A program made the translations under genes and the position numbers. Positions 1-15,240 of a DNA stretch of 64,000 nt are shown piece by piece. The notes beneath the pieces were generated by a model. That model was not told the origin of the DNA, made no database searches, and saw nothing but the letters and a program-made list of their open reading frames with translations. The first letter of the stretch is position 1. Every line of letters starts with the position of its first letter. The stretch is from Parvibaculum sp. (GTDB lineage: Bacteria > Pseudomonadota > Alphaproteobacteria > Parvibaculales > Parvibaculaceae), in assembly GCA_030645235.1 (NCBI GenBank), contig JAUSMV010000030.1, forward strand, positions 62,001 to 126,000. Direction: 5' to 3'.

Positions 1-559
1 GAATACCCGCTGTATCCAGATGGTTAGCCACTGTTTCCTGAGTGATCGCTTCAGGGTCGATGCGGCCGGCCTTCACCTCGCGTGCGATGCGGCGCACGGC
101 AGAGGTGATCTCGTTTTGACCGCCGTAGTTAAAGGCAATAATGAGCTTGAGATTGCTATTATTGCGCGTGAGGGCCTCGGCCTCTTCGATCAACGCCACA
201 ATATCGGCTTCCAGATGCTCGCGATCGCCGATGATACGGACCTGAACGCCGTTCTGATGAAGCTCAGCTAAGTCTCTACGAATAAACAATTTTAGCAAGC
301 CCATGAGGTCACTGACTTCATCGGCGGGGCGGTTCCAATTTTCGGAGCTGAAGCCATAAAGCGTCAGATACTCGATGCCCATTTCACCGGCAGCACGCGT
401 GATGACGCGCACGGCCTCAACACCCTGTCGGTGGCCAACCTGACGCGGCAGGTGGCGGCGCGCAGCCCAGCGACGGTTGCCATCCATGATGATGGCAACG
501 TGGCGCGGCACGGGAACCGCGTCCGTCTCACTGGCCGGGGCGTCTTGCCTCCCCATCAT
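1..559 (-). CDS. uppS: Undecaprenyl diphosphate synthase, 3' end beyond window
   Basis: cis-Prenyltransferase that condenses isopentenyl diphosphate onto farnesyl diphosphate to make the C55 carrier lipid for peptidoglycan and O-antigen. About 186 codons are visible; the C-terminus lies past the left edge. The family signature [10 protein letters not shown] appears near residue 23, with the Mg-binding catalytic Asp at about residue 26, followed by [13 protein letters not shown] and FNYGGQNEI, both typical of the family. Two adjacent ATG codons (559 and 556) could start it. It is the last visible gene of the rpsB-tsf-pyrH-rpiB-frr-uppS run, 68 bp after frr. Family assignment is firm. Confidence 0.95.
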
Positions 560-627
560 CGTTGGACTTTCTCCAGTCAAAACACAGCGTTAGAATACAA
601 ACATTATCAGGCACGAGAGCCTAGTAC

Positions 628-1194
628 TTATACCTGCATAATTTCCGCTTCTTTGTGCGACAGCGCACCGTCGATCTCGCCGATGATCGCATCGGTGAGT
701 TTCTGGACTTTTTCCGACCAGGACTTGTGGTCGTCTTCGCTCATGTGACCGCCCTTTTCGAGCGTCTTCAATTCGTCCATCGCGTCGCGGCGGACGTTGC
801 GCACGGCGATGCGGGCATGCTCGGTATATTTCGAGGCGATTTTGGTGAGTTCCTTGCGGCGCTCTTCGTTCAGTTCCGGAATAGGCAGGCGGATGAGTGT
901 GCCGTCCACATTGGGGTTGAGGCCGAGACCCGACGAGCGGATGGCTTTGTCCACCGCGCTCACCATGCCACGATCCCATACCTGCACCGTGATGAGGCGC
1001 GATTCCGGCGCATTGACCGTGCCGACCTGATTGATGGGCATCATCTGGCCATAGGCATCGACCATGATCGGGTCGAGCAATGCAGCAGAGGCACGGCCTG
1101 TACGCAGGCCTGCAAACTCCTGTTTCAGCGCCAACAGAGCGCCGCGCATGCGCCGTTCAACGTCGCCGATATCGAGTGTTTTGGGTTCAGCCAT
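628..1194 (-). CDS. frr: Ribosome recycling factor
   Basis: Splits post-termination ribosomes together with EF-G so that subunits can be reused. 188 residues, close to the usual 185. The helical bundle is recognisable from [15 protein letters not shown] near the N-terminus, the middle segment [19 protein letters not shown], and the C-terminal helix with [12 protein letters not shown]. It follows rpiB by 77 bp and precedes uppS by 68 bp, all on the minus strand, so it is probably transcribed from the pyrH side. Nothing looks truncated. Confidence 0.97.
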
Positions 1195-1271
1195 GGTCTT
1201 TATCCTTCAGGGTCTTTTTTTAGGTGATCGGGTAGTGTCTGTCGCAGACGTGACACGATAAAAGATACGCA

Positions 1272-1703
1272 TCATCCCAGTTTCTCCACGCGCGCTTCAT
1301 GACGACCGCCTTCAAATTCGGTGGTGAGAAAGGTGTTGAGAATTTCAATCGCATCGGCCTCGCTGATGAGGCGCTGGCCGAGTGCGAGAATATTCGCATC
1401 GTTATGCTTGCGGCCAAGGGCGGCGACTTCGGTGGAATAGCCCAGCACGCAGCGCGCACCGGCGACGCGGTTTGCCGCCATGGAGATACCAACGCCGGAG
1501 CCGCAGATGGCAATACCATATTGCGCCGCGCCGCGAGCGACGGTTTCGCCAACCTGCCTGCCGTAATCAGGGTAATCGACCGAATCGTTACTGTCGGTGC
1601 CGAGATTGAGGACTTCATAACCGGCGGCGCGCGCGACAGGGATCAACGCCTGCTTAAGCGTCACGCCGGCGTGATCGTTTGCAATAGCAATCACTCGTCC
1701 CAT
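1272..1703 (-). CDS. rpiB: Ribose-5-phosphate isomerase B
   Basis: Interconverts ribose 5-phosphate and ribulose 5-phosphate in the pentose phosphate pathway (RpiB/LacAB fold). 143 residues from the ATG at 1703, which has an AAGGAA ribosome site six bases upstream; the ATG at 1718 is in frame but has a weaker site. Seen motifs: IAIANDHAG at the N-terminus, CGSGVGISMAANR with the catalytic-type Cys, and GRKHNDANILALG. It starts only about 15-30 bp after pyrH, so it is surely in the same transcript. The placement between pyrH and frr is unusual, because those two are normally adjacent. Confidence 0.93.
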   Translation of the reverse strand: MGRVIAIANDHAGVTLKQALIPVARAAGYEVLNLGTDSNDSVDYPDYGRQVGETVARGAAQYGIAICGSGVGISMAANRVAGARCVLGYSTEVAALGRKHNDANILALGQRLISEADAIEILNTFLTTEFEGGRHEARVEKLG

Positions 1704-5743: not shown

Positions 5744-8700
5744 TCAGACCTCTTCCACCATCACCACGCCCGGCACGGATTTGATTGCGCCGCGGATTTG
5801 TGGTGTCACCTTGTAGCCGCCCTTAAGCTGGATTTCGGTTTCGCGGCCGCCCTCGCCCATCAGGATGAGCGACACGAGGCCTTTGCCTTTTTCGCTGAGG
5901 CGGGTTTGGAGTGCGATCAAGGGCTTGGGGTCTTCGATGAAGATTTTGAGACCTGCGGCCGTGTCCGCGACCACATTGTCCACTGAGCGCACGGTTTGCG
6001 CGAGCAGTTTGGCTTCGTCGCCATTATGTTCAACTTCAACACCCAGCACCACGGCCTTGCCAGGTTCCAGCAGGTCGCGTGAAGTGTTGAGCACGTCGGA
6101 GAAGACGACGACTTCAAACTGGCCGGTCGGATCTGACAGGCTGATAAAGGCAAAGGGATTGCCCTTTTTGGATTTGCGCTCTTGCTTGGCTGTGATCGTG
6201 CCTGCGATGAACTCAGCGCGGTTGCCGCGTTTCAACAACTCGGCATAGGTCACGACTTTGGCGCGGCGCAAAGCTGTCTGGAAATCGTCGAGCGGGTGGC
6301 CGGACAAATAGAAGCCGATGGCGTTGAACTCTTCGTTCAGGCGTTCAATCGGCAGCCACGGCTCAGCATTGGGCAGCGACGGATTGGCGACGCTGGCGCC
6401 GGAGGCTTCGCCGAAGAGGCTGACCTGTTTGCTCTCGCGCTCGTTCGCTGACGCATTGGCTGTGCCAAGCACAAGATCGACGGAGGCGAGCACCTGCGCG
6501 CGGTGCGGATTGAGACAATCAAAGGCACCGGCTTTGGCGAGATTTTCAAAGGCGCGTTTATTGACGAAGCGCGGGTTGATGCGGCGGGCAAAATCAAACA
6601 GGTCGCGATAGGGTCCGCCCTCTTTGCGCACCTCAACCAGATGCTCCATCGCCTGCATGCCGACATTTTTGATGGCGGCGAGCGCATAAACGACGTCGCC
6701 GTTCAGCACTGAGAATGTGGCTTCGGATTCATTGATGCTCGGCGGGCGCAGCTTGATGCCCATACGGTTGGCGTCTTGTTTGAAGACGTTGAGTTTGTCG
6801 GTGTTGCCAAGATCGAGGCTCATGGAGGCCGCAAAAAACTCAACCGGATGATTGGCTTTGAGCCATGCCGTCTGATAGGCGACGAGCGCGTAGCCGGCGG
6901 CATGCGCCTTGTTGAAGCCGTAGCCTGCGAACTTGTCCACGAGTTCAAAAATCTGCGAGGCCTGATTTTTATCGACGTCTTTGGCCATCGCACCCGACAC
7001 GAAACGCTCTTTCTGCGCTTCCATTTCGGCTTTGATTTTCTTACCCATCGCGCGACGCAGAAGATCGGCTTCACCCAACGAATAGCTCGCGAGGATCTGC
7101 GCGATCTGCATCACCTGTTCCTGATAGATGATGACGCCGTAGGTTTCTTTCAGCACCGGCTCCAGCAAGGGATGAAGATAGTCCGGTTTTTCGCGCTCAT
7201 GTTTGCGCTCGATGTAAGACGGGATGTTGTCCATCGGGCCGGGGCGATAGAGTGCGACGAGAGCTATGATGTCTTCAAAGCGGTCGGCTTCGAGCTTACG
7301 CAGCACGTCGCGCATGCCCGAACTTTCAAGCTGGAACACGCCAACTGTTTCGGCGCGCGCGAGCATCGCGTAAGTCTTCTCGTCCTGAAACGGAAGCTGA
7401 AGCAAATCAATGTCGATGCCGCGTTTGGCGATGAGCTTCACGGCCTGATCGAGCACGGTGAGCGTTTTGAGTCCGAGAAAGTCGAACTTTACGAGGCCCG
7501 CAGGCTCGACCCATTTCATGTTGAACTGAGTCACCGGCATATCAGAGCGCGGATCGCGATAGAGCGGCACCAACTCGTCAAGACTGCGGTCGCCGATCAC
7601 GACACCGGCGGCATGGGTGGAGGCGTGACGATAGAGGCCTTCGAGACGCTGGCCGATTTCCAAAAGCTTGGCGACGGCTTCCTCGCTATCGCGCGCTTCC
7701 TGCAGACGCGGCTCACCCTTGATCGCTTCGGCAAGCGTGACGGGCGCGGCGGGATTATTCGGCACGAGTTTACAAAGACGGTCCACCTGACCATAGGGCA
7801 ATTGCAACACGCGGCCGACGTCGCGCAGAACGGCGCGGGCCTGCAGCTTTCCGAAGGTGATGATCTGCGCCACGCGGTCCACACCATAGCGGCCCTGCAC
7901 ATAGCGGATCACTTCGTCGCGACGGTCCTGACAAAAGTCGATGTCAAAGTCAGGCATGGAGACGCGTTCGGGGTTGAGGAAACGCTCGAACAGCAGGCCG
8001 AAACGCAGCGGATCAAGGTCGGTGATGGTGAGCGCCCAGGCGACAACGGAAGCCGCGCCGGACCCACGGCCCGGACCCACGGGGATGCCGTGCGCCTTGG
8101 CCCATTTGATGAAGTCGGCCACGATGAGGAAGTAGCCGGGGAAATCCATCTTGATGATGACATCAAGTTCGAAACGCAAACGCGCGCGGTATTCTTCTTC
8201 GGACGCAACCGTTTCCAATCCGGCAAGGCGCGCGGTCAGCCCCTCCTCCGCTTGCTGGCGCAGCGCATCGGCTTCGCTCGTGCCCGCGCTGAAGGTGGGC
8301 AGGATGGGTTTGCGCGTCAGCGGACGATAGGCGCAGCGACGCGCGATCTCGATGGTGTTCTCAATCGCTTCGGGCAGATCGTCGAACAGCGCGACCATTT
8401 CGTCTTGCGACTTAAAGCGATGATCGGGCGTGAGGCGGCGACGGTCGGTCTGCGAGACATAAGCGCCTTCGGCAATGCAGATCATTGCGTCATGCGCTTC
8501 GTAATCGGCCTCTTGCGAAAAATGGGGTTCATTGGTGGCGACGATGGGCAGGCCCATCGCATAGGCCATGTCGATGAGCGGGGCTTCTGTCTGGCGCTCG
8601 GTGTCGAGACCGTGGCGCTGCAACTCGACATAAAGGCGATCACCAAAAGCCGCGGCAAGGCGCTTCATCAGGGTTTCGGCAGCGGGGCGCTGGCCGGTGA

Positions 8701-9169
8701 CCAACAGACGATTGACGATGCCTGCGGGACCGCCGGTGAGGCAGATGAGACCGGCGGAATGAGCCTCAACCAGTTCCAGCGACACATGAGGGAAGTCGCC
8801 CGCTTCCGGCCCAAGGAAAGCACGGCTCGTCAGCTTCATCAGGTTTTCGTAGCCCTGCTCGTCCTTGGCGAGAAGTGCCAGCGTGCCCGACAATTCGCGG
8901 CGCTGGGAGCGACCCGGTTCAGCGGTCTCGTCGAGCATGACAGGCAAGGTCAAACCCGTGATCGGCTGGATGCCTGCACCGGACAAGACTTCGGAGGCTT
9001 CGAGCGCCCCAAAGAGATTGCTCGTATCGGTGATCGCAACCGCAGGCATGCCATCTGCCTTGCAGAGCTTGGGCAGGTCTTTGATGCGGATCGCGCCTTC
9101 GAGCAGCGAGTAAGCCGAATGGAGACGCAGATGAATGAAGCGGGGATACGAGTCGGGCATACGCGACAT
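5744..9169 (-). CDS. dnaE: DNA polymerase III subunit alpha
   Basis: Catalytic subunit of the replicative polymerase, 1141 residues from the ATG at 9169 (9160 is also possible). Domain order: N-terminal PHP domain (HLRLHSAYSLLEG), palm with GPGRGSGAASVVAW near residue 360 and the acidic PDFDIDF near residue 400, fingers with IIYQEQVMQIA and GYGFNKAHAAGYA, then the OB fold near the C-terminus. The N-terminal sequence matches DnaE1, not the error-prone DnaE2/ImuC type. A 46-codon gene with tandem LexA boxes lies 74 bp upstream on the same strand with no clear terminator between, so part of dnaE transcription may be SOS-responsive (inference). Confidence 0.97.
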   Translation of the reverse strand: MSRMPDSYPRFIHLRLHSAYSLLEGAIRIKDLPKLCKADGMPAVAITDTSNLFGALEASEVLSGAGIQPITGLTLPVMLDETAEPGRSQRRELSGTLALLAKDEQGYENLMKLTSRAFLGPEAGDFPHVSLELVEAHSAGLICLTGGPAGIVNRLLVTGQRPAAETLMKRLAAAFGDRLYVELQRHGLDTERQTEAPLIDMAYAMGLPIVATNEPHFSQEADYEAHDAMICIAEGAYVSQTDRRRLTPDHRFKSQDEMVALFDDLPEAIENTIEIARRCAYRPLTRKPILPTFSAGTSEADALRQQAEEGLTARLAGLETVASEEEYRARLRFELDVIIKMDFPGYFLIVADFIKWAKAHGIPVGPGRGSGAASVVAWALTITDLDPLRFGLLFERFLNPERVSMPDFDIDFCQDRRDEVIRYVQGRYGVDRVAQIITFGKLQARAVLRDVGRVLQLPYGQVDRLCKLVPNNPAAPVTLAEAIKGEPRLQEARDSEEAVAKLLEIGQRLEGLYRHASTHAAGVVIGDRSLDELVPLYRDPRSDMPVTQFNMKWVEPAGLVKFDFLGLKTLTVLDQAVKLIAKRGIDIDLLQLPFQDEKTYAMLARAETVGVFQLESSGMRDVLRKLEADRFEDIIALVALYRPGPMDNIPSYIERKHEREKPDYLHPLLEPVLKETYGVIIYQEQVMQIAQILASYSLGEADLLRRAMGKKIKAEMEAQKERFVSGAMAKDVDKNQASQIFELVDKFAGYGFNKAHAAGYALVAYQTAWLKANHPVEFFAASMSLDLGNTDKLNVFKQDANRMGIKLRPPSINESEATFSVLNGDVVYALAAIKNVGMQAMEHLVEVRKEGGPYRDLFDFARRINPRFVNKRAFENLAKAGAFDCLNPHRAQVLASVDLVLGTANASANERESKQVSLFGEASGASVANPSLPNAEPWLPIERLNEEFNAIGFYLSGHPLDDFQTALRRAKVVTYAELLKRGNRAEFIAGTITAKQERKSKKGNPFAFISLSDPTGQFEVVVFSDVLNTSRDLLEPGKAVVLGVEVEHNGDEAKLLAQTVRSVDNVVADTAAGLKIFIEDPKPLIALQTRLSEKGKGLVSLILMGEGGRETEIQLKGGYKVTPQIRGAIKSVPGVVMVEEV

Positions 9170-9243
9170 TGTCCGGTCCCTGCCCCGCAAAGTCACTGCC
9201 CGCAACGTCGCGGCCCAGCATTAACTGTGGAAAAGACCAGTGA

Positions 9244-9384
9244 TCAGGCCTGCATCGCTTGATGGGCGATTTCGACCCATGAGGATGCGACCCAGAGGAA
9301 AGCGCCGATGGAGACGAGCGCGGCAATGTCTTTGAGCCAGACGCCAGTTTCAGATTCGTTAGCAACGCGAATGAGTTTGGTCAT
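9244..9384 (-). CDS. 46-residue membrane peptide under LexA control
   Basis: Unlabelled small gene: ATG at 9384, AGAGG ribosome site six bases upstream, TGA at 9244. The product starts MTKLIRVANESETG, has one hydrophobic segment at about residues 18-37 (ALVSIGAFLWVASSW), and ends AHQAMQA. It reads as a single-pass inner-membrane peptide with a short charged cytoplasmic start. Two LexA boxes lie 20-61 bp upstream of the ATG, overlapping the promoter. dnaE follows 74 bp downstream on the same strand. Known in Caulobacter: SidA and DidA are very small SOS-induced membrane proteins that block cell division. Similar role here is inference from size, topology and control. Confidence 0.75.
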   Translation of the reverse strand: MTKLIRVANESETGVWLKDIAALVSIGAFLWVASSWVEIAHQAMQA

Positions 9385-9404
9385 TGGAAACCTCTGTGAC
9401 ATAA

Positions 9405-9457
9405 GTTCACTATATGTTCTTGTTGAGGATGTTCTTCCTATGTTCTCATTCTGTCAA
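9405..9457 (-). promoter_or_regulatory. SOS promoter with two LexA boxes
   Basis: Two perfect copies of the alphaproteobacterial LexA box GTTC-N7-GTTC: 9405-9419 and 9431-9445, starts 26 bp apart. On the minus strand a consensus -35 TTGACA lies at 9457-9452, with a weak -10 GAACAT at 9434-9429 (17-base spacer) inside the upstream box; a better -10-like TATAGT at 9414-9409 lies inside the other box. LexA bound here would cover the promoter of the 46-residue peptide gene and possibly dnaE. Confidence 0.85.
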
Positions 9458-9495
9458 GCGGGAACAGCAAAAATCTTCAGGCTTACTTTCGGGAG

Positions 9496-11790
9496 CTACT
9501 TGGGTGCTTCCCACACAAAATCGAGGGCAGAGGCGGCGTAAGTCGTGTCTGAGGTGAAGAACGGCGTGTAGCCCGCCGGTTTCAACGGCACAGCAACGCC
9601 TTCGGGCCAGCCGTCGGAAATTTCAAACACGCGGAGCTTCGCGCTGCCTTTGGCCTTGGCCGTGAAGGTGAGCATGGTGCCCTCTGCGGTCGGTGCCGCA
9701 AAGAGGAATTGCGACCACTCGCCCGGCTCCGGCGTGAGCCCCAACGGGATGCCGTCGATGGCGAGGTCGGTGACGGCGACATCCGATTGCATGATGAAAC
9801 GCAATTCGCGCGGGCTGCCTGCGGGGATAATTTTGAGCGTGACGCGTTTGCCTGAGATGAGGTTCATCGCGTCGCCGCTGAGGACGGGGCGCGGGACAGC
9901 TGCGGCTTTGGCCTCAGCACGCCATGCGGGCAGGACATAGCCAGGCGTCAGCGTTGACCATTCGGGTTTGCCGCCATCAGCGGTCAGGGCGGCCTCTGAC
10001 CACGCATCAAGTGATTTCAGCATGCTGACGCGGGCATATTGGTCCGCCGCAGGACCGGCGAGATAGAAGGCTTGCGTGAGGCGCGGATGGGCGGCATCCG
10101 CCGGACCGAATTTAGCCCAACCGAGTGAGACGAAGGCCACCAGCACGAGCGCAGCTGCGAGGATGCTACTGCGCGGCAGACGGACGAATGCCTCGAGTGC
10201 GGGATAAAGCGCAACCGCTGCGACGAGGGTCGGCAGCACGAGGATGGCGGGCAGAAATCCGCCAAGGCCAAGGAAGGCGGCAGAGCCGAAGCTTGCAATC
10301 TGCACCATCGACAGGAAAGAGAGCGGCACGGCGATGACGAGCGCGGTGCCTGTGTCGGGTTCGCCCTTTGCCAGCGCAATGATGAGCGCGGCGGCAAGGC
10401 TCGCGGGGATAAGCGGCCAGACGAAAAAGAGCGTCGTGGCGGGGGCGGCGATTTGCAACCCGAGCGCGATGACGAAGAGGAGGATAAGTCCGCCGAGCCA
10501 TGTGCCCCAGAGGGTAAGGACGTTGCGCAGCGCGAGCGCCAATCCCCATGCGATGGCGAGCGCGAGGAGGATGCAACCGCCGAGGAAGAAATCATAGCGG
10601 GCGATCATTGTATATTTGGCCTGAATGTCGAACGCACCGACAAGACCGCGACCGGCGAGGAAAAAGACGACGCCTTCAACAAAGACAAGCAGGAGAAAGA
10701 AACCCGCGCCGATGGCAATGCTGCGTCCGCCGACAAGGCGATCCGCCCTCGCCTTCCACGTTGCAAAGCCGATGATGACGGCGAGCAAAGCGATGAGCGC
10801 CCATCCGGTGGCGAAGGAATAGCTGACAAAACCGTGGCCGAAGACATCCCCATAGACGAGGTCCGGCTCACTTGCACGAAGATCATCCGCATTGGCAAGC
10901 GCGGCCGTCAGCGCCAACACCTGATCGCCCATATGCTGCACGCTACCGGAATTGAGATTGGCGGGCGTCGCGCTTGATGTGTGATAGGCGAACTCATCAC
11001 CGATAAACGCGAAGTTCAAGCCAGGGATATTTGCATCAAAGGCCATCGTCAGGTCCGTGCCGTTGGGCATGACACGATAGATGAAGGCCGAGAGCGAATT
11101 GGCAGCGGGATCTCTCACCGCTTTGCCATAGGCGGTGATAAGTCCGCCTGCTTTGTCGCTCGTCTCGAACATAAAGGCGCGGCCACCGCCGCCACGCGAT
11201 TCAAGATTGATGACAAGGCCGACGCGTCTTGCCATCGGGTTCTGATTGAAGAACGCGCGTGCACCGAGCAGACCGGATTCTTCGCCTTCCGTGAACAGGA
11301 AAATCACGTCGCGTTTGAGCGGGCCTGCGGCTTTGAGGTTTGAGGCGATTTCGAGCATCGCAGCGACGCCTGCCGTGTCGTCAGGTGCGCCCGGAGAATT
11401 CGCCACCGTGTCGTAGTGGCTCATCAACAGAATGGCAGGAAGATCAGGAGAGGTGCCCTTGAGCGTGGCGATGACGTTATGCACGTTGGCCACGATGGCT
11501 GTTTGCGCAACACGGGTGGGGACATAGGTTATCTTTTGTCCGGCATCGGGCGCCACATCGAGATTTAATCCTGTGAGCCGCGCTGCGATATAGCTGCGGA
11601 CACGGAGAATGTCAGGTGAGCCTATGGGATGAGGCCGCACCGCAATCGTCTCGACATCAAGCATAGCGCGGGTCGCGGAAAACACGCCGCGCTCAACTTC
11701 CGCACTTAACGGCGCCGGTGGTTGTGCAAAATAAGAAGCAGCCCAGAGACTTAAGGCGAAGACGATGACGTAAGAGACAGCTCTGGTCAT
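9496..11790 (-). CDS. Membrane-anchored M28-family zinc aminopeptidase
   Basis: 764 residues. N-terminal membrane segment at about 3-22, then a periplasmic M28 peptidase domain (about 40-305) with the zinc ligands in order: LMSHYDTV, GAPDDTAG, FTEGEESGLLGA with the catalytic Glu pair, and the distal His in AYHTSSATPANL. Residues of about 325-570 hold a series of hydrophobic membrane segments, followed by a soluble C-terminal domain. The layout resembles Fxna-like M28 proteins. It starts 26 bp after lolD and is probably the last gene of the proS-lolC-lolD run. The substrate is unknown. Confidence 0.85.
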   Translation of the reverse strand: MTRAVSYVIVFALSLWAASYFAQPPAPLSAEVERGVFSATRAMLDVETIAVRPHPIGSPDILRVRSYIAARLTGLNLDVAPDAGQKITYVPTRVAQTAIVANVHNVIATLKGTSPDLPAILLMSHYDTVANSPGAPDDTAGVAAMLEIASNLKAAGPLKRDVIFLFTEGEESGLLGARAFFNQNPMARRVGLVINLESRGGGGRAFMFETSDKAGGLITAYGKAVRDPAANSLSAFIYRVMPNGTDLTMAFDANIPGLNFAFIGDEFAYHTSSATPANLNSGSVQHMGDQVLALTAALANADDLRASEPDLVYGDVFGHGFVSYSFATGWALIALLAVIIGFATWKARADRLVGGRSIAIGAGFFLLLVFVEGVVFFLAGRGLVGAFDIQAKYTMIARYDFFLGGCILLALAIAWGLALALRNVLTLWGTWLGGLILLFVIALGLQIAAPATTLFFVWPLIPASLAAALIIALAKGEPDTGTALVIAVPLSFLSMVQIASFGSAAFLGLGGFLPAILVLPTLVAAVALYPALEAFVRLPRSSILAAALVLVAFVSLGWAKFGPADAAHPRLTQAFYLAGPAADQYARVSMLKSLDAWSEAALTADGGKPEWSTLTPGYVLPAWRAEAKAAAVPRPVLSGDAMNLISGKRVTLKIIPAGSPRELRFIMQSDVAVTDLAIDGIPLGLTPEPGEWSQFLFAAPTAEGTMLTFTAKAKGSAKLRVFEISDGWPEGVAVPLKPAGYTPFFTSDTTYAASALDFVWEAPK

Positions 11791-11816: not shown

Positions 11817-12533
11817 TCAGAGGCTTTGATAATGTGCTTGCAGATCCGCGCCTTCGAGTAGACGACCTTCATGGAGCAGAACCACGCGGTCCATCTGGCC
11901 TGCAAGATCAAGATTATGTGTGGCGACGAGTGCGGCGACGCCTTCGTTGCGGCAGATCGACAGAAGCTCATTGAACACATGCCGCGATGTTTTGGGATCG
12001 AGATTGCCAGTCGGTTCGTCGGCCAGCAGCAGACGCGGACGATTGGCCAGTGCGCGGGCGATGGCAACACGCTGCTGCTCGCCGCCTGACAATTCAGCGG
12101 GACGGTGCGTGGCGCGGGGGCCGAGGCCCATACGTTCCAGCAAATAATGCGCGAAAATCCCGGCGGATTTCTTCGGCACGCCCGCAATCAATTGCGGCAG
12201 CACGACATTTTCGAGCGCGGAAAATTCAGGCAAAAGATTGTGCGACTGATAGACAAAGCCCAATTCGGCGCGGCGTACGCCGGTTTTCAAGCCGTCGCGC
12301 AAGTCAACGCAGTTGCGTCCGTTGATGATAACCTCGCCGCCATCGGGTGCTTCAAGAAGGCCTGCGATGTGCAGCAGCGAGGATTTGCCGGAGCCGGACG
12401 GGCCGACAAGGCCGACCATTTCGCCTTGGGCAATGTCGAGCGAGGCCTGCTCAAAAATACGCAGCGCAACTTCGCCCTGATGATAGACGCGGGTGATGTC
12501 GCGGAGTGAAAGAACTGTGGTGGCGTTGTCCAT
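11817..12533 (-). CDS. lolD: Lipoprotein-releasing ABC transporter ATPase LolD
   Basis: ATPase of the LolCDE complex that extracts lipoproteins from the inner membrane for outer-membrane delivery. 238 residues. Walker A GPSGSGKSS near residue 41, Q-loop in FVYQSHNLLPEF, signature LSGGEQQR, Walker B LLLADEPTGNLD, and the switch His in ATHNLDLA. It begins 13 bp after the permease gene, so the two are translationally linked. Confidence 0.95.
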   Translation of the reverse strand: MDNATTVLSLRDITRVYHQGEVALRIFEQASLDIAQGEMVGLVGPSGSGKSSLLHIAGLLEAPDGGEVIINGRNCVDLRDGLKTGVRRAELGFVYQSHNLLPEFSALENVVLPQLIAGVPKKSAGIFAHYLLERMGLGPRATHRPAELSGGEQQRVAIARALANRPRLLLADEPTGNLDPKTSRHVFNELLSICRNEGVAALVATHNLDLAGQMDRVVLLHEGRLLEGADLQAHYQSL

Positions 12534-12546
12534 GTTATCCCCTTCC

Positions 12547-13839
12547 TCACTCGTACCGGAGCGCTTCGACAGGATCGAGCGAAGCGGCGCGCCATGCGGG
12601 ATAAAGCGTGGCGGCGAATGAAAGGAACAGTGCCATGCCGACGACGGAAGCGACTTCCGACGCGTTCACTTCGGCAGGCATGTGCGTGAGAAAGTAGATT
12701 TCCGGATTAAACAATTCGGTGCCGATGAGGCGAGATATAAACTGACGCAGGCCTTCAATGTTCAGACAAAACAACGTGCCAAGCGCGAAGCCCGCGAAAG
12801 TTCCCGCGACACCGATGGCGGCCCCTGAGATGAAGAAAACGCGCATAACCGCACCTTTGGTCGCGCCCATCGTTCGCAGGACGGCGATGTCGCGGCCTTT
12901 GTCCTTCACCAGCATGATGAGGCCCGACACGATATTGAGCGCGGCCACGATCAGTATGAGGGTGAGGATAAGGAACATCACATTGCGCTCAACCTGCAGC
13001 GCGCTGAAGAATGTCTTGTTGGTTTCCTGCCATGTCAGAACATCGCAGCAACCGCCCGCAATCGTATTGATGGGACCGACGAGAATGTCCACCTTGTCGG
13101 GGTTTTGCACCATGATCTCCAGTGCGGTCACGCCTTCCTGCGTGCGGAAATATCCCCGCGCTTCGGCAAGCGGCATGAAGATGATGGAGCTATCATATTC
13201 AGACATGCCGATTTGGAAAATGGCGGAAACCACATAAGCTTTGACACGCGGCGCTGTGCCGAAAGGTGTGATGGCCCCGCGCGGACTAAGCAGCGTGATA
13301 TTGTCCCCGACATTCAGGCCGAGATTTTGCGCCAGCCGCGAGCCGATGGCGACGCCGTCGGTCGTGTCGAAATTATCAAGCGTACCGACTTCGATTTTGT
13401 CGGAGACGACCTTAAGGCGTTTCAGATTTTTCTCGCTGATGCCGCGTACCATCGCGCCGAAGGCGTTGGACGGGCTTGAGGCCATGACCTGACCTTCAAC
13501 AATCGGTGTGGCGCTGATGACACCGGGAAGTTTTTCAATCTCGACTGCAACCGTGTCGTAATCGGTGACGAAGCTCGACACGCTGCGCACGAAGAGATGA
13601 CCGTTGAGACCGAGGATACGGTCGAGAAGTTCGGTGCGAAAGCCGTTCATCACTGACATGACGATGATGAGTGTCGCCACGCCGAGCATGATGCCGAGGA
13701 AGGAAAAGCCAGCAATGACCGAGATAAACCCTTCGCGGCGGCGGGCGCGGAGATAGCGAATGGACAGCATCCATTCAAAGAAGCCAAAGGGACGCGCTTT
13801 GCCGCGCCCTCTTTTATCAATGCTCGCGGCCTCACTCAT
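12547..13839 (-). CDS. lolC: Lipoprotein-releasing ABC transporter permease LolC/LolE
   Basis: Inner-membrane permease of the lipoprotein-releasing system, 430 residues. N-terminal membrane helix following FEWMLSIRYLRARRREGF, a large periplasmic domain, then three membrane helices in the C-terminal FtsX-like domain (FLILTLILIVAALNIVSG and the closing LYPAWRAASLDPVEALRYE). One permease gene only is present, as expected where LolC and LolE functions are served by a single homodimeric protein. It sits between proS and lolD. Confidence 0.93.
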   Translation of the reverse strand: MSEAASIDKRGRGKARPFGFFEWMLSIRYLRARRREGFISVIAGFSFLGIMLGVATLIIVMSVMNGFRTELLDRILGLNGHLFVRSVSSFVTDYDTVAVEIEKLPGVISATPIVEGQVMASSPSNAFGAMVRGISEKNLKRLKVVSDKIEVGTLDNFDTTDGVAIGSRLAQNLGLNVGDNITLLSPRGAITPFGTAPRVKAYVVSAIFQIGMSEYDSSIIFMPLAEARGYFRTQEGVTALEIMVQNPDKVDILVGPINTIAGGCCDVLTWQETNKTFFSALQVERNVMFLILTLILIVAALNIVSGLIMLVKDKGRDIAVLRTMGATKGAVMRVFFISGAAIGVAGTFAGFALGTLFCLNIEGLRQFISRLIGTELFNPEIYFLTHMPAEVNASEVASVVGMALFLSFAATLYPAWRAASLDPVEALRYE

Positions 13840-13862: not shown

Positions 13863-15182
13863 TTACGCGGTCAGCTTTTGCAAAGCGGCATCAAGCGACA
13901 GCTCAACGCGTTCGCCGCTGGCGCGATTTTTCAATTCAACTATGCCGGTTTTAAGGCCGCGCGGACCAACAACGAGCTGCCACGGCAGACCGATCAGATC
14001 CATGTTGGCGAATTTGGCACCGGCGCGTTCGTCGGTGTCGTCGTAAAGGACTTTAACACCTGCGGTTTTGAGCTTGGCGTAGATATCCTCGCACGCCTTA
14101 TCAGTCTCCGCGTCGCCTGCCTTCATATTGATGATGCCGACTTTGAAGGGCGCGACGGCTTCGGGCCAGATGATGCCGTTTTCGTCATGGCTTGCTTCGA
14201 TAATGCCGCCGACGAGGCGCGAGACGCCGACGCCGTAGGAACCGCCGTGAATGGCGCTGTCTGTACCATCGGGACCGGTGACGGAGGCCTTCATGGCGTC
14301 TGAATATTTTGTGCCGAAATAGAAGACCTGGCCCACTTCGATGCCGCGCGTGTTGACGCGCTTATCAGCGGGGACTTCGGCCTCGAAGCGGGCATTGTCA
14401 TGCACGTCTTCGGTGGCAGCGTAGAGGTCCGTCCATTTGGCGATGAGCGACGTGAGGTCGCTGTCATAATCCACGTCAGCGGGCGGCGGAGGCAGATCGA
14501 GCACATCTTTGTTGATGAAGACGCCGCTCTCGCCCGTCTCGGCGAGGATGATAAATTCGTGGCTCAGGTCGCCGCCGATGGGGCCGGTTTCAGCGCGCAT
14601 CGGAATGGCTTTGAGGCCCATACGGGCGAACATGCGCAGGTAGGCTACAAACATACGGTTGTAGGAGCGCCGCGCTGCAGCCTCGTCAATGTCGAAGGAA
14701 TAGGCATCTTTCATCAGAAATTCGCGACCGCGCATGACGCCAAAGCGCGGGCGCTGTTCGTCGCGGAACTTCCATTGCGTGTGGTAGAGGTTCAACGGCA
14801 GTGCCCGATAGGAGCGCACATAGGACCGGAAGATCTCGGTGATCATTTCCTCGTTGGTCGGACCGTAAAGCAACTCTCGATCGTGACGGTCTTTGATGCG
14901 GAGCATTTCGGGGCCGTAAGCGTCGTAACGACCGCTTTCGCGCCACAAATCCGCGAGCTGGAGCGTCGGCATCAGCATTTCGAGTGCCCCTGCCCGGTCC
15001 ATTTCCTCGCGCACGATCTGCTCAATGTTTTGAAGCACGGCAAAGCCCAGCGGCAGCCAGGCATAGATGCCGGCGGCTTCCTGCCGGATCATGCCGGCGC
15101 GCAGCATGAGGCGATGCGAGACGATCTGCGCCTCGGCGGGGTTTTCTTTCAGCGTGGGCAGGAAGTATTTGGAAAGGCGCAT
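13863..15182 (-). CDS. proS: Prolyl-tRNA synthetase, short alphaproteobacterial form
   Basis: Class II synthetase charging tRNA-Pro, 439 residues. Motif 2 region [21 protein letters not shown] and motif 3 region [15 protein letters not shown] are clear; the C-terminal anticodon-binding domain includes [18 protein letters not shown]. It lacks the editing insertion domain of the roughly 570-residue E. coli enzyme, which is normal for this class. Two adjacent ATG codons (15185, 15182) could start it. lolC follows after 23 bp; a promoter is proposed at 15241-15269. Confidence 0.96.
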
Positions 15183-15240
15183 CATAAACCTTGAGCGGGA
15201 GCCTCACGGCCAAAGCGGGCCGGAGCATTACGGGGCTCAA

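Follow-up and report, generated by a model that had tools for sequence, protein, structure and literature searches.

A conserved 46-amino-acid membrane peptide gene upstream of dnaE in Parvibaculum as a probable orthologue of Caulobacter sidA

Introduction

To our knowledge, how most alphaproteobacteria stop dividing after DNA damage is largely open. The textbook SOS division inhibitor, SulA, is reported not to be widely conserved beyond the gammaproteobacteria (PMC4211646). A tiny open reading frame (ORF) found directly upstream of dnaE in Parvibaculum sp. raises the question of whether a division inhibitor of another type is encoded there. The window, which is the whole stretch of 64,000 nucleotides that was analysed (contig JAUSMV010000030.1, positions 62,001 to 126,000), had previously been read by a model from its letters alone. 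This sequence-only reading proposed an SOS-controlled, 46-residue membrane peptide that could be a counterpart of SidA or DidA, the small division inhibitors of Caulobacter. Here, we ask whether the frame is a real gene, what its promoter looks like and to which known system it belongs.

Results and discussion

The small gene and its predicted product

The gene is located at 9244-9384 on the minus strand, starting with ATG at 9384-9382 and ending with TGA at 9246-9244, and its 46-aa product is MTKLIRVANESETGVWLKDIAALVSIGAFLWVASSWVEIAHQAMQA. The sequence CCTCT at 9391-9395 corresponds to AGAGG on the coding (minus) strand, which puts a ribosome-binding site 6 nt 5' of the start codon; start, ribosome-binding site, stop and length were thus borne out as first described. 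Another in-frame ATG is present upstream at 9402 and would give a 52-aa product, however, the start at 9384 is favoured because of the ribosome-binding site and the alignment of the family.

The hydropathy of the peptide showed one hydrophobic stretch, with the best 19-residue window at residues 15-33, and AlphaFold, supplied with the single sequence, predicted a single helix at residues 2-45 with a pLDDT of 88.6. Both are consistent with the earlier proposal of a single-pass membrane peptide, and the frame, its relatives and the predicted helix suggest a peptide of the SidA type. Searches of Pfam and NCBIfam with the 46-aa peptide assigned it to no family, the sole Pfam match (E 0.22) being far under the cut-off.

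Conservation of the reading frame in Parvibaculales

A search with the single sequence found the peptide in the window's own genome, in 23 of 26 genomes of the same genus and in all 10 of the same family. Weak matches in 2 of 24 more distant genomes (G049 and G057) were within long frames and were set aside. With an order-wide profile, the frame was detected in 37 of 40 genomes; as 17 of the 30 peptides read had gone into this profile, some of the genomes searched had contributed to it. The three genomes without a match were G005 (71% complete), G012 (98% complete, in about 400 contigs) and G020 (57% complete).

Six residues (M1, W16, D19, A21, L23 and W36) were invariant across the 17 aligned peptides. 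The sequence-only reading had named frame-breaking substitutions in relatives as evidence against a gene, and none were found: over 14 close pairs, some of which have a member in common, the frame was unbroken, there were zero length differences, and the differences at codon positions 1, 2 and 3 numbered 47, 22 and 123, being mostly third-position changes. The 46-aa peptide is therefore a real observation, and it is this conservation, rather than the number of LexA boxes, that makes it so.

A putative LexA-controlled promoter

Both perfect GTTC-N7-GTTC boxes of the original description are present upstream of the gene, as identified by pattern search and in relatives. Box 2, which is GAAC-N7-GAAC on the minus strand, is near the start codon at 9405-9419, and box 1 is 26 bp away at 9431-9445 on the same strand. 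A feature absent from the earlier description, a -35 promoter element TTGACA, is located at 9452-9457 (minus strand), 6 bp 5' of box 1.

The number of such boxes is at chance level, with two seen in the window against 2.28 expected, and 69 in the whole genome compared with 108 for a reversed-pattern control. As these counts are not above chance, they were left out of the evidence. The position and conservation of the boxes are, in contrast, beyond chance. Among 30 Parvibaculales loci, chosen by protein match with boxes playing no part in the choice, all 30 have a perfect LexA box ending 11-38 nt 5' of the start codon. The second box, 26 bp further upstream, was perfect in 10 of them, had one mismatch in 12, combined one mismatch with a 1-bp shift in three and was absent in five, all outside the genus. 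The sequence TTGAC is also present in 30/30 loci, where it precedes box 1, or the lone box of the five single-box loci, by 4-6 bp. Despite this conserved TTGAC, a generic sigma-70 consensus scan of 9200-9520 and 9100-9520 returned no promoter. Based on these sequence features, the promoter is putatively LexA-controlled. In comparison, about 97% of the SOS promoters of Caulobacter are reported to have one box (PMC12700426).

Other SOS-type loci are present in the same genome. A lexA gene (170.9 bits, cut-off 110.95) has its own LexA box 45 bp upstream and is separated from the window gene by about 27 kb (G000:C58:44454, L373). The corresponding C. crescentus genes, lexA (CC1902) and dnaE (CC1926), are likewise about 24 gene numbers apart (PMC1839093). 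An imuA-like gene, which scored below the cut-off (59 of 150 bits), has a box 25 bp upstream, with a second dnaE-family match about 3 kb further on. A further observation was made at G000:C58:1749800-1754000 (L370), where a perfect LexA box, GAACATAATGAGAAC, precedes by 41 bp a gene that by eye resembles a cytosine methyltransferase.

The dnaE locus

The peptide gene is followed on the minus strand by dnaE, encoding the alpha subunit of the replicative DNA polymerase III (5744-9205; NCBIfam NF004226, 1502.7 bits; TIGR00594, 1222.1 bits), whose true start, judged by eye, is probably near ATG 9169. Upstream, and also on the minus strand, are a hydrophobic protein with a peptidase-like stretch (9496-11790, with family matches far below cut-offs), a lolD-like ABC ATPase (11817-12533; TIGR02211, 241.4 bits against a cut-off of 307.75), lolC/E (12547-13839; TIGR02212, 481.7 bits) and proS (13863-15185; NF008979, 754.4 bits), giving the order proS-lolC-lolD-...-dnaE. 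Conserved synteny with dnaE and with LexA boxes had been suggested as a check. The box was found in all 30 Parvibaculales loci as above, and 26 of them had dnaE downstream in the same orientation, at a distance of 22-249 nt. The four exceptions are L043 and L044, which are short and near contig ends, and L049 and L053, which have no dnaE within the 1.5 kb read. At L049, the upstream lolC-lolD is retained and a toxin-antitoxin-like pair is present where dnaE is expected.

Two side observations concern these last loci. Directly downstream of the peptide gene at L049 (720-1330, minus strand), the two small genes resemble, by eye, a RelE/ParE-type toxin and its antitoxin. At L053 (G013; 215-1465, minus strand), the next gene after that of the peptide is large and, by eye, DUF262-like; the upstream neighbours look different and the locus seems rearranged.

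The closest named match of dnaE was a Parvibaculum MAG with 89% identity. Named loci were taken from the best 80 of 138 matches, and 14 of the 15 from the Parvibaculum group, a set overlapping the 30 Parvibaculales loci, had the box; the fifteenth (L117) has no upstream sequence. The 65 other named loci among these best 80, which were mostly Rhodobacterales, had no perfect close box (0/65) in the 700 bp read, and one of them has a distal box at -654. The lolD gene was upstream in 32 of 44 boxed and 61 of 105 unboxed dnaE leaders, so that this gene order is a general feature and does not distinguish the boxed leaders.

The proximity of dnaE means that the LexA boxes could serve dnaE itself, the small ORF being a translated leader of an SOS-controlled dnaE operon that raises the replicative polymerase after damage. 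If ATG 9169 is used, dnaE starts only about 75 bp past the stop codon of the peptide, a search of 9100-9520 revealed no terminator-like site, and dnaE of C. crescentus has been listed as SOS-regulated (PMC3323433). Against this stand the conservation of the peptide sequence, its ribosome-binding site and the mostly third-position changes, and the unit of box and peptide persists in L049 and L053, where dnaE is missing from the 1.5 kb read. We regard this explanation as quite unlikely. Co-induction of dnaE is nevertheless compatible with the gene being an orthologue of sidA.

The link to SidA of Caulobacteraceae

In C. crescentus, sidA and dnaE are presumably adjacent. SidA is a 29-aa peptide that acts on FtsW (PMC4211646), its gene is CCNA_02004 (PMC10769358) and is LexA-regulated (PMC12700426), and dnaE is CC1926 (PMC1839093). 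Caulobacteraceae genomes were located by using PopZ as the query, and G485 was taken as a member of the C. crescentus group because its PopZ was 100% identical over 177 aa. Directly before dnaE in G485 are a LexA box, a ribosome-binding site and a 29-aa peptide, which has the published length of SidA, the two being compared by length and locus. Among 30 Caulobacteraceae hand-picked from 248 genomes searched, all had a peptide of 29-31 aa before dnaE (28 identified by script and 2 by eye), and a perfect LexA box was present in 23 and missing in 7.

The two peptide families can be aligned to each other. An hhalign comparison of the Parvibaculales and Caulobacteraceae families aligned 22 columns with a probability of 92.7% and a single-comparison E-value of 4.4e-7, with the Parvibaculum peptide extending about 12 aa ahead of the aligned core. 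When the Caulobacteraceae profile was run over 27 genomes, the top three matches (G006, 4.1e-5; G015, 0.002; G004, 0.011) were all the Parvibaculales gene, which was also matched more weakly in G013, G001 and G033, a total of 6 out of 22 Parvibaculales genomes. In the window's own genome, the same profile had no match at E<=5, and in none of the 5 other genomes did it match the dnaE-side peptide, the remaining matches (E 0.036 and up) being elsewhere. In the reverse search of 29 Caulobacteraceae, the right place was found in G275 (0.0075), G528 (0.012) and G592 (0.054); the others gave wrong places or nothing, G485 was missed, and a wrong-place match in G341 was among the best (0.0075). Pairwise BLASTP between the window peptide and the Caulobacter peptide gave a gapped, weak alignment of 19.2 bits. 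A W-x-[KR]-D motif is shared by Parvibaculum and g61 members and is lacking in Caulobacter proper, and several intermediates have W-[VLF]-[KRQ]-D followed by the helix.

As the direct similarity is weak, and undetected with the window genome alone, the case for orthology is built on the locus, the promoter, the relatives and the intermediates. The earlier guess of a SidA or DidA counterpart therefore stands in its first half: the dnaE locus, the LexA box, the kind of peptide and a weak, consistent profile similarity point to SidA. A counterpart of DidA was rejected, as DidA of C. crescentus is reported to be 71 aa long, SOS-independent and driven by DriD (PMC4211646), against 46 aa and LexA boxes here.

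Distribution across Alphaproteobacteria

Searching 387 genomes with the Parvibaculales profile (E<=0.01) gave 15 matches outside its family, nine of which are just before dnaE. We examined 31 loci matched in this or a second profile search, two of them from the window's family and some of the matches of the second search being members of its own profile: 19 had dnaE alongside, and 18 of these also had a box nearby, the exception being L218 of G413, whereas none of the 12 loci without dnaE had a box.

Independently of peptide matches, we scanned 119 dnaE leaders from outside the order for perfect boxes, two of the leaders (L229 and L268) being shortened by contig ends. A box was found in 21 and none in 98; in comparison, 200 base shuffles averaged 1.8 boxed leaders (at most 5) and the reversed pattern gave 4. 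A helix-forming small ORF with a ribosome-binding site was present just after the box in 14 of the 21 boxed leaders compared with 2.8% at random positions, a proportion that is descriptive because the helix filter was fixed after the boxed leaders had been viewed. One more peptide, of 29 aa, was seen by eye in G096, bringing the total to 15 of the 21 boxed leaders in 13 families, and in the other 6 no peptide was seen.

A separate observation is a 28-aa peptide, MTDMIRDIAAFTSIAMFVASFSLIVMAI, located with a LexA box before dnaE at L228 (G406, family f156) in a 7.4-Mb genome, a hint that the family may extend into additional groups.

Another possibility is that the locus is conserved and the peptide is not, with unrelated small membrane peptides having been recruited to this SOS promoter separately from order to order. 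The peptides of Parvibaculum and Caulobacter proper are weakly similar when compared directly, and no similarity was found with the window genome alone, which would fit with this, as would boxed class-wide peptides lacking the motif (W-x-K-D is not in every one of the 15, G102 being without it) and the tendency of short helices to be alike through composition. On the other hand, there are several intermediates with W-[VLF]-[KRQ]-D and a helix, the family profiles can be aligned, and 9 of the 15 weak class-wide matches are placed just before dnaE; we consider this explanation unlikely.

We lean towards SidA being the checkpoint by which the ancestors of many Alphaproteobacteria halted division in the SOS response, rather than a Caulobacter speciality, with LexA sites credited to dnaE being sidA promoters. 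If so, the small size of the peptide, about 26-51 aa, would account for its having been overlooked.

Proposed role

On balance, the window gene is quite likely to be the Parvibaculum orthologue of sidA, whose product would block septation driven by FtsW, FtsI and FtsN after DNA damage. What we observed is that the frame is conserved, that the promoter has a characteristic arrangement, that Caulobacteraceae have their peptide at the same locus and that the profiles are similar; LexA binding, induction, topology, a divisome target and division arrest are inferred. In undamaged cells, LexA would sit on the box in the promoter spacer and on the second box just before the start codon, keeping the gene off. 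Upon DNA damage, RecA-stimulated cleavage of LexA would free the promoter and the 46-aa peptide would be made, consisting of a short, probably cytoplasmic N-terminus with W-L-K-D and one membrane helix. Once in the inner membrane, the peptide could hold the assembled FtsW/FtsI/FtsN septal wall machine inactive until repair is complete. Such a mode of action is known from SidA, which contacts FtsW and FtsN in two-hybrid assays, is suppressed by mutations in FtsW and FtsI, and leaves Z-ring assembly unaffected (PMC4211646).

An SOS-controlled peptide of this size could also act by damaging the membrane, lowering energy and growth with no specific inhibition of the divisome. TisB of E. coli is under LexA control and is a tiny single helix. 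The same combination is reported for DinQ, also of E. coli (PMC3567139). However, the locus and promoter of the window gene match those of SidA-type genes, and the Caulobacter example acts on the divisome, which makes a TisB/DinQ-type function very unlikely in our view.

Implications

Titles and abstract openings among the matches listed in our literature search, which included few subscription papers, mentioned no SidA of another genus and no Parvibaculum SOS peptide. SidA itself has been described before; neither its occurrence in Parvibaculum nor its wider spread was found in that literature. A study from 2012 reported dnaE as SOS-regulated in C. crescentus and found this again in its own alphaproteobacterial comparison (PMC3323433). 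The LexA sites credited to dnaE could instead be the promoters of sidA, and reading the small gene as sidA may therefore reassign them. A rule based on one locus, namely a LexA box and a tiny helix before dnaE, makes SOS division arrest testable across many species, and the natural variation of the peptide could provide a map of how a single helix shuts off FtsW.

Comparison with known systems

The closest known system is SidA. The window gene differs from it in encoding 46 aa instead of 29 aa, with about 12 aa added at the N-terminus, in having two LexA boxes 26 bp apart, in going undetected by the Caulobacteraceae profile in the window's genome and in that the Parvibaculum gene is known from its sequence. 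It shares with SidA a LexA box at the promoter, a tiny single-pass membrane peptide (as predicted here), a position directly before dnaE, basic residues ahead of the helix with none behind it, and a weak profile similarity.

With DidA, the likeness is that of a small single-pass membrane peptide tied to DNA damage and division. The Gram-positive SOS division inhibitors YneA, ChiZ and SosA are likewise bound to the membrane, are induced by DNA damage and inhibit the septal wall machine. They differ in their architecture, as ChiZ carries a LysM domain. YneA has one too, and the predicted binding of YneA, ChiZ and SosA to FtsW is on the other side of TM7 from that of SidA (PMC13396833).
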